Origin: a virus
Virus record (IMG/VR): IMGVR_UViG_3300037847_004131
Location: 1-20,524 of that record
DNA: 20,524 nt
Strand: one strand, 5' to 3'
Shown here piece after piece: positions 10,247 to 18,666 of the stretch. Position 1 is the first letter of the stretch. Each line of letters starts with the position of its first letter. The translations under genes and the position numbers were made by a program. Below the pieces are notes generated by a model, which had not been told where the DNA came from, made no database searches, and worked only from the letters and a program-made list of their open reading frames with translations.

Positions 10247-10270
10247 AGAGGGTAGCCGAAACTACCCCCT
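10247..10270 (-). other. RNA hairpin between decoration gene and tail tubular A
   Basis: On the minus-strand transcript, AGGGGGTAG pairs with CTACCCTCT over nine base pairs, including one G-U, around a TTTCGG loop. The third pair is a G-U on the minus-strand RNA but an A-C mismatch on the plus strand, which favours a function in the virion mRNA. The minus strand has no T-run after it, so it is not a normal intrinsic terminator. It could be a processing or stability element that lets the upstream capsid and decoration messages outnumber the tail message. Confidence 0.55.
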
Positions 10271-10805: not shown

Positions 10806-11669
10806 TTAACTTTCAGTACATTCTATCTCAACAACTTTTTCATCTTCGATACGAGTTGCACCGATAGTCATTGACAAGAATACCTGTGTTGCATAATTTT
10901 TGTCTGCTCTTTCAGAAATTCTAGTTTGAATATCTGAGCCTACAGCAAGGCCGATACCAGATTTAGCAAATGCTAAAACTAATCTGTTGCTAGATGAGTT
11001 AGTATCTAGTCTTTCTGTTCTAATAAAATTGAATCCCATAAATGTATCAATTTCACCTTGAACAAGTGCTTTAACAGAGTTAAAGTCTGCAGATGTAATT
11101 TGTGTTATTGCTAACAAATCTGATAGTTGTTTAGATGTGCATACTAAATATCTTTCCTCTTCAGGATCAATATCAGCAGCATCTAAGATTTCTTTTGCTT
11201 CGATCAGTTTTGTAACTGATAAACCAGCAGAGCCGTGAGCAATTTTTTGCCCAGATGGTAATGCTACTGTTGTACCACCAGCTACGCCACCGAAGGCATT
11301 ACCAGAAGCTGCATCAATAATTGCATCATCCATTGCTCTTCCCATAGCCCATGCACCTGCTTGTGCATATTCAGACTGTGGGCTGATAAGCATCCTTACT
11401 TTATCTTCTTGATCAATTAAGTCTGCCCAATCGTAATCATCCATACTTACTTTCCTACGAGAGTGAGGTGTGTCAACTCTTGGAGTGTCGCTATGTCTGG
11501 ATGTTCTTTTTAGCGCAGCAGTTGAGCCAATTCTTTCAAAGAAATGAGATTTACCGACAACTGTTTCTGTACGGACTGCATCTCTAAGTCTTGAACCTTT
11601 TTGCTGTGCCAAATGAAATACATTACTTTTATACTGTTCTATAAAAGCTGTAGTTATTTGTACTGACAT
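10806..11669 (-). CDS. Major capsid protein
   Basis: This 287-residue protein starts MSVQITTAFIEQYKSNVFHLAQQKGSR-like (positions 1-27). A conserved block, DTPHSRRKVSMDDYDWADLIDQEDKVRMLISPQSEYAQAGAWAMGRAMDD (about 66-115), matches the short-podovirus capsid family; an HK97-type fold is expected but not provable here. A central YLVCTSKQLSDLL strand-helix unit and a C-terminal FLSMTIGATRIEDEKVVEIECTES beta segment fit the A domain and P domain edges. About 400 copies would form the T=7 head in a T7-type virion. It has the best ribosome site in the operon (TAGGAGGACTGAAATATG) and its own promoter and leader, consistent with high expression. It lies directly downstream of the scaffold gene. Assignment is strong. 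Confidence 0.92.
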   Translation of the reverse strand: MSVQITTAFIEQYKSNVFHLAQQKGSRLRDAVRTETVVGKSHFFERIGSTAALKRTSRHSDTPRVDTPHSRRKVSMDDYDWADLIDQEDKVRMLISPQSEYAQAGAWAMGRAMDDAIIDAASGNAFGGVAGGTTVALPSGQKIAHGSAGLSVTKLIEAKEILDAADIDPEEERYLVCTSKQLSDLLAITQITSADFNSVKALVQGEIDTFMGFNFIRTERLDTNSSSNRLVLAFAKSGIGLAVGSDIQTRISERADKNYATQVFLSMTIGATRIEDEKVVEIECTES

Positions 11670-11811
11670 ATTTCAGTCCTCCTATAAAAATATATTATCG
11701 GTATTTATCCAAATGGGATACCTTATAAAATACGTTTTTATCAAACGGATGTTTAACGCCTATCATGGCCACCCCATCTGTTATCCTTACGGGCAGAACT
11801 TTGGTATCTTA
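11670..11811 (-). promoter_or_regulatory. Structured 5' leader of the capsid mRNA
   Basis: About 140 bases separate the scaffold-side promoter from the capsid ATG, in an operon where most junctions overlap. On the RNA strand, GATACC (11808-11803) can pair with GGTATC (11722-11717). The same GGTATCC can instead form a local hairpin, TATCC-CATTT-GGATA (11720-11706), close to the capsid ribosome site. A second small stem joins TCTG with CAGA around a CC...GG core (about 11800-11778). The two pairings are mutually exclusive, like an attenuator or translational switch. The fold is predicted by eye only. Confidence 0.4.
11695..11766 (-). CDS. Possible 23-residue leader peptide upstream of the capsid gene
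   Basis: A 23-codon frame (MIGVKHPFDKNVFYKVSHLD, then KYR) lies in the 5' leader of the capsid mRNA and ends 25 bases before the capsid ATG. Its start codon shares ATGA with the stop of a five-codon frame (ATG GGG TGG CCA TGA, bases 11763-11777) that has AAGGATAACAG before it, so ribosomes could reinitiate. The frame covers the hairpins described for this leader. Its length alone could arise by chance. The coupling and the placement on a promoter-driven leader are the reasons to list it. Confidence 0.3.
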   Translation of the reverse strand: MIGVKHPFDKNVFYKVSHLDKYR

Positions 11812-11820
11812 ATTATAGCA
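11812..11820 (-). promoter_or_regulatory. Extended -10 promoter for the capsid gene
   Basis: Reading the minus strand, TGCTATAAT gives a perfect TATAAT preceded by the extended TGn element, just downstream of the scaffold stop codon. A -35 box 17 bases upstream is weak (TATGGA), as is usual for extended -10 promoters. Transcription would start near base 11805 and give a leader of about 135 bases. This would add capsid message on top of read-through from the terminase side and looks like host sigma-70 type recognition. Confidence 0.55.
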
Positions 11821-18556: not shown

Positions 18557-18666
18557 TATTAAATTATTTTGTTTACTAATAAATATAATATAAATCTATC
18601 TTATATAATTATATCATACTAAAGTTTTATTGATGAAAAAAAATAATAATAAATTTTAGAATATAC

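Follow-up and report, generated by a model that had tools for sequence, protein, structure and literature searches.

Relatives of the phage studied here are among the most abundant viruses of seawater, and how such phages draw an excess of capsid protein from packed operons is a question that the locus described here makes testable. The window, i.e., the whole stretch of 20,524 bases that was analysed, is an IMG/VR virus record in which the structural operon lies on the minus strand in the order terminase, portal/connector, scaffold-like, major capsid, next gene, tail tubular and large virion proteins; the gene behind the capsid gene gives a weak structural-protein match. The product of the major capsid protein gene (10806–11669, minus strand; PHROG 3437, E=4.6e-101) shows 79% identity to the capsid of Pelagibacter phage Baldr and 59–62% to those of HTVC010P and HTVC028P. 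As judged from sequence, the window phage is related to the SAR11 podoviruses (Baldr, HTVC010P), and a SAR11 host is presumed from these relatives and HTVC028P. In GenBank, the locus tags of two records appear to have been swapped, OQ414636.1 (Baldr) being tagged EXVC031PHodr and OQ414635.1 (Hodr) EXVC032PBaldr.

The scaffold-like gene adjoins the capsid gene, and between the two lies a leader gap with a promoter-like element. A sequence-only reading had taken this gap for the leader of the capsid mRNA, equipped with a promoter and switch-like hairpins; a promoter-like element and functional hairpins are indeed supported, but the hairpins that covary are not those that it named. Comparative analysis indicates that the gap encodes a real, conserved structured RNA of ~110 nt, starting from about the predicted +1. 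The leaders were drawn from 80 related IMG/VR loci and from a scan with the hairpin-B pattern described below (98 stretches, of which those read were capsid leaders, bar four chance matches); the alignment set comprised 69 distinct leaders, and covariation was counted on 65 distinct aligned rows. Because MAFFT alone misaligned hairpin A between clades, the covariance model R1 was seeded from seven well-aligned leaders and extended by cmsearch. It matches the window at 11699–11810 (minus strand, as are all coordinates of the leader; E=5.9e-15) and was found in every relative of the window's clade that was tried.

In the R1 alignment, which is fitted to the model and hence biased toward it, standard pairs occupy 95.4% of the cells, and compensatory double changes are present in 22 of the 27 pairs (65 rows). 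When the 3' partners were slid by 1–3 columns as a control, 27–50% of the cells were paired and at most 10 pairs showed double changes; the covariation score of 0.45 for the 65 distinct leaders likewise fell below 0.05. The seven seed rows, which were not fitted, are 96% paired, with double changes in 12/27 pairs. Additionally, G-U cells outnumber A-C cells by 96:8 in the R1 clade and by 32:1 in the HTVC010P-type sister clade, thus identifying the selected molecule as RNA of the capsid strand rather than DNA or an antisense RNA. The covariation test of capsid leaders that the sequence-only reading had proposed is therefore strongly positive, but for other hairpins.

The RNA is built from hairpin A, hairpin P2, a hairpin P3 that is optional, a pair of small pseudoknots and, last, hairpin B. 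Hairpin A (11771–11805) opens with an outer helix of three pairs (11805–11803 with 11773–11771), all of which show double changes and which are 91% paired. Its inner part (11777–11797) consists of a helix in which all pairs covary (11797–11794 with 11780–11777), an internal loop in which C11793 stands opposite AUAA (11784–11781), and an end helix CC/GG with the loop GUAA. The letters GGAUAACAG of this hairpin (window 11793–11777) are also present in E. coli 23S rRNA at 2446–2454 (L507), in the peptidyl-transferase part, with CCCC at 2063–2066; this likeness may be due to chance, and other clades differ at those positions. Hairpin P2 (11758–11769; GCC/GGC, loop AUGAUA) contributes four model pairs, all with double changes and 98% paired. 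Hairpin P3 (11725–11741) has five pairs, again all with double changes.

The two pseudoknots were recognized by mutual information. In pseudoknot 1 (11748–11764), GAU of the P2 loop (11764–11762) pairs with AUC (11750–11748) in 88% of cells, and GAU/AUC is replaced by GCA/UGC and GGU/ACC; in pseudoknot 2 (11733–11747), CGU (11747–11745) pairs with ACG of the P3 loop (11735–11733) in 99%, and its third pair appears as U-A, U-G, A-U or C-G. Taken together, both pseudoknots are paired in 92.9% of cells vs 19–42% when slid, and the strand AUCCGU thereby bridges the loops of P2 and P3. P3 and the pseudoknots are missing in several clades. Hairpin B (11700–11722) is 100% paired and mostly invariant, with the stem GGUAU/AUACC, C11717 opposite AUAA (11708–11705) and the end helix CC/GG; its variants lead from GGUUU/AAACC to GGUAU/AUACC and GGUGU/AUACC, and the end pair C-G becomes G-C in one leader (L016). 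In the window, hairpins A and B thus have in common a one-by-four internal loop, with C opposite ANAA, and a CC/GG end helix, and a strict descriptor of this twin loop has exactly two matches, A and B, on both strands of the window (41 kb).

The pairings on which the sequence-only reading was built are literally present in the minus strand: the promoter letters TGCTATAAT at 11820–11812, GATACC at 11808–11803, GGTATC at 11722–11717 and TATCC-CATTT-GGATA within 11720–11706, together with ATGGGGTGGCCATGA and the 23-codon frame. It had proposed a switch between two mutually exclusive hairpins, together with translation of a five-codon and a 23-codon frame, a model that now seems hardly credible despite the existence of these pairings and frames in the window; capsid output might still be coupled to the level of ribosomes or of an RNA-binding protein, as that reading also suggested. 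GATACC/GGTATC is paired in 52% of cells vs 20–40% when slid, double changes are not enriched, and the first G of GATACC is already C in a leader whose capsid is 96% identical (L008). TATCC/GGATA is without covariation, one of its five pairs being mismatched in 57 of 64 sequences. Neither of the two mutually exclusive pairings is accordingly conserved or covarying beyond controls. The 23-codon frame is confined to near-identical leaders, namely those of the window, L003, L004 and L008; in L007, whose capsid is 99% identical, the deletion of one base shifts it, and all other clades lack it and have unrelated short frames instead. No conserved upstream open frame, as leader-peptide or coupled-frame control would involve, was found among these leaders, since the frames differ between clades; the ATGA overlap of the two frames falls inside hairpin P2, and on comparison of the sequences both frames are best described as by-products of the P1/P2 sequence that break freely. 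Judged by the criterion which the sequence-only reading had set itself, its structural part holds, though for another structure, and its coding part fails.

The promoter claim fared better. The extended -10 element TGCTATAAT (TGnTATAAT; 11812–11820), with a predicted start at ~11805, keeps the same spacing to the RNA in relatives: 72 distinct relatives have a hexamer that agrees with the -10 consensus at five or six of its six positions, mostly 15–18 nt upstream of the loop-A cytosine, and in 55 of them it carries the TG extension. Since shuffled windows of the same composition frequently reach 5/6 as well, the evidence for a promoter lies in its fixed place and the TG, not in the hexamer score. 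TGnTATAAT occurs twice on both strands of the 20.5-kb window, in the capsid leader and at 18616 (minus strand); the latter site lies in a gap of ~500 nt between the minus-strand structural genes and plus-strand genes and is probably another phage promoter. Because the promoter is directly upstream, the RNA is placed at the 5' end of the transcript, and the predicted start falls at about the position where pairing in hairpin A begins. The published pelagiphage transcriptome (PMC12753301) covers pelagiphage types other than this group.

An independent set of leaders is provided by the HTVC010P-type sister clade, in which a related RNA is preceded by a promoter-like TTG..TATAAn. Among 18 such leaders, pairing holds in 98.4% of the cells and double changes are seen in 14 of 28 pairs, with a covariation score of 0.33 vs at most 0.09 in the control. 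Hairpin A is strand-swapped in this clade, reading (GUAAG)-ACAA-UUC-GNRA-GAA-C-(CUUAC), with the stem variants UUAGG/CCUAA and AUAAG/CUUAU and a change of the end helix from UUC/GAA to UCC/GGA, and hairpin B retains C opposite A[UG]AA. The corresponding model, R2, finds one copy in each of 9 HTVC010P-type records and also matches a freshwater leader (L284, E=0.003). Many phages of the HTVC010P type have hairpin A within an upstream gene, and their promoter call is weaker. In leaders such as L300 and L301, it lies in the end of a small upstream gene, whose stop codon is contained in the loop of the next hairpin (GAAUAGA), and RNA and protein constraints therefore overlap. In phages that lack this extra gene (L315, L317, L318, L319, L326, L331, L334 and others), an operator-like inverted repeat, AATCCCTTG...AAGGGATT, encloses the promoter-like TTG/TATAAG upstream of the leader.

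The RNA is a single-copy element. A search of 24 whole phage records with R1 gave one copy each in 23 and, in the remaining record (G014), a weak second match (E=0.13); complete genomes have one copy, always at the capsid gene. The pattern GCCC-N-GGAYAAC occurs at most once per record and is present in 7 of 16 diverse records, with one occurrence overall for the reversed control. The twin loops extend to Vibrio phage CKB-S2, in which the hairpins lie at -94 and -55 from the annotated start of a capsid gene whose product is 31% identical to that of the window, and to L285, L499 and others. Among 38 leaders of diverse capsid relatives, 25 contain at least one descriptor match and 8 contain two, 11 of the 38 being flagged as biased because they were fetched through the motif itself; for the 27 leaders obtained otherwise, the figures are 14/27 and 6/27. 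Random 190-nt windows from the same loci yielded at least one match in 11/2023 and two in 0/2023. The descriptor was shaped on the first clades, and the distant leaders are thus the fair part of this test. No match was found in the leaders of ZP6, K300, YeP5, 1.182.O, MEP301 and more, and the strict descriptor fails on HTVC028P (L083) and on the freshwater leaders L283, L287 and L291, in which similar hairpins can be drawn by eye.

Alteromonas phage ZP6 (L090) and Vibrio phage K300 (L504) have a strong extended -10 (TGCTATAAT and TGTTATAAT, respectively) some 110 nt upstream of the capsid gene. Behind it come two stretches that resemble hairpins and have GGGUAGC/AGGUAGC in common where the other leaders have C/ANAA; these phages may represent another class of twin-hairpin leader. 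The matches listed for a hairpin-A pattern with 15 fixed bases were mostly due to chance, and loci taken from that pattern were flagged as biased. In 84,980 genomes, the exact hairpin-B pattern, which can miss divergent host copies, gave 83 scattered, chance-like matches; the single one that was read (L245) is a phage capsid leader in a MAG. The contig on which it lies, NHDJ01000148.1, is labelled Verrucomicrobia bacterium TMED56 but includes the leader and the beginning of a capsid gene of the present phage group, so that phage DNA has probably been assigned to a bacterial MAG.

At the other end of the putative transcription unit, the gap behind the gene that follows the capsid gene contains a GC-rich hairpin, GGGUAG-UUUCGG-CUACCC (10250–10267, minus strand), without a U run. 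A strong hairpin of about -15 to -22 kcal/mol is found at the equivalent place in most of the 26 relatives examined; it is weak in Baldr, and HTVC010P and L050 showed no gap of this kind. Certain clades (L035-type) have UUUUU behind it, as in an intrinsic terminator, and often there is no U run. The hairpin is likely to be the 3' end, or a barrier, of the capsid mRNA, and the proposed unit would comprise its own promoter, the 5' RNA, the capsid gene and one further gene, and the 3' hairpin.

We propose, with a probability of roughly 0.4, that the leader is a cis-acting 5' guard of a separate capsid mRNA, with a factor docking at the twin loops. The promoter between the scaffold-like and capsid genes would start a dedicated capsid mRNA, whose first ~110 nt would fold compactly into the twin C/ANAA hairpins and, in the window's clade, two pseudoknots, with the 5' end lying within the outer helix of hairpin A. 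The folded leader would then block 5'-end-dependent decay, the twin loops would offer two identical docking sites to a trans factor, more likely a protein than a metabolite, and the short mRNA (the capsid gene and the next gene, with the GC hairpin at its end) would outlast and outproduce the neighbouring structural mRNA. Here we infer the start site, the binding of a factor, the stabilisation and the direction of the effect. In enteric bacteria, a 5'-terminal stem-loop protects mRNA. Protection alone leaves the anatomy unexplained, since a simple 5' hairpin would protect without conserved loops or pseudoknots; the conservation of the twin loops suggests that something binds them. The location at the 5' end, the variable spacing to the ribosome site, the hairpin on the 3' side and the occurrence in a single copy make a module that keeps a separate capsid mRNA intact and productive the best fit, against which stand the weaker promoter call in HTVC010P-type phages and a 3' hairpin that is frequently without a U run.

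The main rival, which we regard as distinctly less likely, is a feedback operator: the capsid, scaffold or another phage protein, perhaps as a dimer, would bind the twin C/ANAA hairpins, and excess subunits would repress capsid translation or destabilise the mRNA. A loop motif that is present twice is typical of sites bound by protein, the RNA occurs once per genome and always at the capsid gene, a scaffold-like gene is adjacent, and the autoregulation of the P22 scaffold provides a precedent. However, the loop is retained while capsid identity drops to ~31%, and the structure ends 15 nt upstream of the Shine-Dalgarno AGGAGG (11678–11683), which lies outside the covarying match ending at 11699, and further off in other phages. 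Between hairpin B and the start codon there are 53 to 99 nt, depending on the relative, and the leader is thus unlike an operator that must cover the ribosome site. Control of translation is nevertheless compatible with the data, since the mean probability that the Shine-Dalgarno is unpaired is only 0.40 on plain, unconstrained folding. Ranked next, and improbable, is a put-like RNA, in which the nascent leader would bind its own RNA polymerase and suppress pausing or termination over the late genes. Two bulged stem-loops straight after a promoter, as in HK022 putL (PMC9378689), and the free distance to the gene are in its favour, but there is one copy per genome, and the GC hairpin conserved 1.4 kb downstream, with its U run in some clades, would be pointless if always read through. 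A metabolite riboswitch, whose pseudoknotted fold would bind a small molecule and control capsid expression, accords with the compact fold, the two pseudoknots and the conserved unpaired bases; it is very improbable in view of the limitation to one structural gene, the loss of the pseudoknot core in several clades and the chance-type matches in bacterial genomes, bar one phage contig. No conserved terminator and no conserved partner for the Shine-Dalgarno were seen among the aligned leaders, a point against a riboswitch that is tempered by the low unpaired probability of the Shine-Dalgarno given above.

With somewhat less confidence than in the 5' guard, we suggest that the twin C/ANAA RNA is an old and widely shared capsid-expression device of podovirus-like phages, from SAR11 to freshwater and Vibrio phages, in which one hairpin can swap strands. 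It would be read by a factor common to very different hosts (RNA polymerase, nuclease or ribosome), and the leaders of ZP6 and K300 would use the second twin-hairpin class based on GGGUAGC. The twin loop offers a defined target for finding the reading factor, and Vibrio phage CKB-S2, which carries it, a culturable host for tests.

Rfam 15 gave no gathering match in the window, permissive thresholds on the leader returned chance matches only, and none of ten related loci had a match at E<=1. No published description of this RNA was found in the literature covered, which excludes subscription papers. Several known systems nevertheless resemble the leader in part. The T7 gene 10 leader combines the phi10 promoter with an RNase III site and thus likewise places its own promoter and a hairpin directly before the major capsid gene; in contrast, T7 employs its own polymerase and a long duplex, whereas a sigma70-type promoter, short hairpins and a different loop are found here. 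A T7-type RNase III site was considered and rejected, since it needs a long, near-continuous duplex with an asymmetric internal loop and the helices of the leader are short, with 2–9 pairs. The ompA-type leaders carry 5'-terminal stabilising stem-loops and have in common with the present RNA a structured 5' end, a highly expressed mRNA and an expected hindrance of 5'-end-dependent decay; the capsid leader, for which stabilisation is presumed, is far more elaborate, with twin conserved loops, P2, P3 and pseudoknots. The operator leaders of ribosomal-protein and coat-protein genes are cis-acting RNAs with conserved internal-loop sites before the gene of an abundant assembly protein, as here, but the capsid leader is without an Rfam match and does not overlap the ribosome site. 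HK022 put (putL/putR), compared by description, is also a phage RNA at or near the transcript start with two bulged stem-loops, and hairpins A and B do form two stem-loops close to the predicted start; put, however, occurs twice in its genome, at early promoters, and exerts its anti-termination effect by binding the zinc-binding domain of the RNA polymerase beta' subunit, whereas the leader occurs once, at the capsid gene, and is marked by C/ANAA loops, by pseudoknots and by a GC hairpin downstream. The manA, wcaG and PhotoRC-II RNAs, structured RNAs of marine cyanophages from comparative genomics (PMC2864571), are linked to metabolic or photosynthesis genes and not to a capsid gene, and the leader gave no Rfam match. 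It apparently serves to control or protect the viral mRNA that is in greatest demand. Structured phage leaders are already known; a capsid-specific one with twin C/ANAA loops across such distant phages appears to be new.
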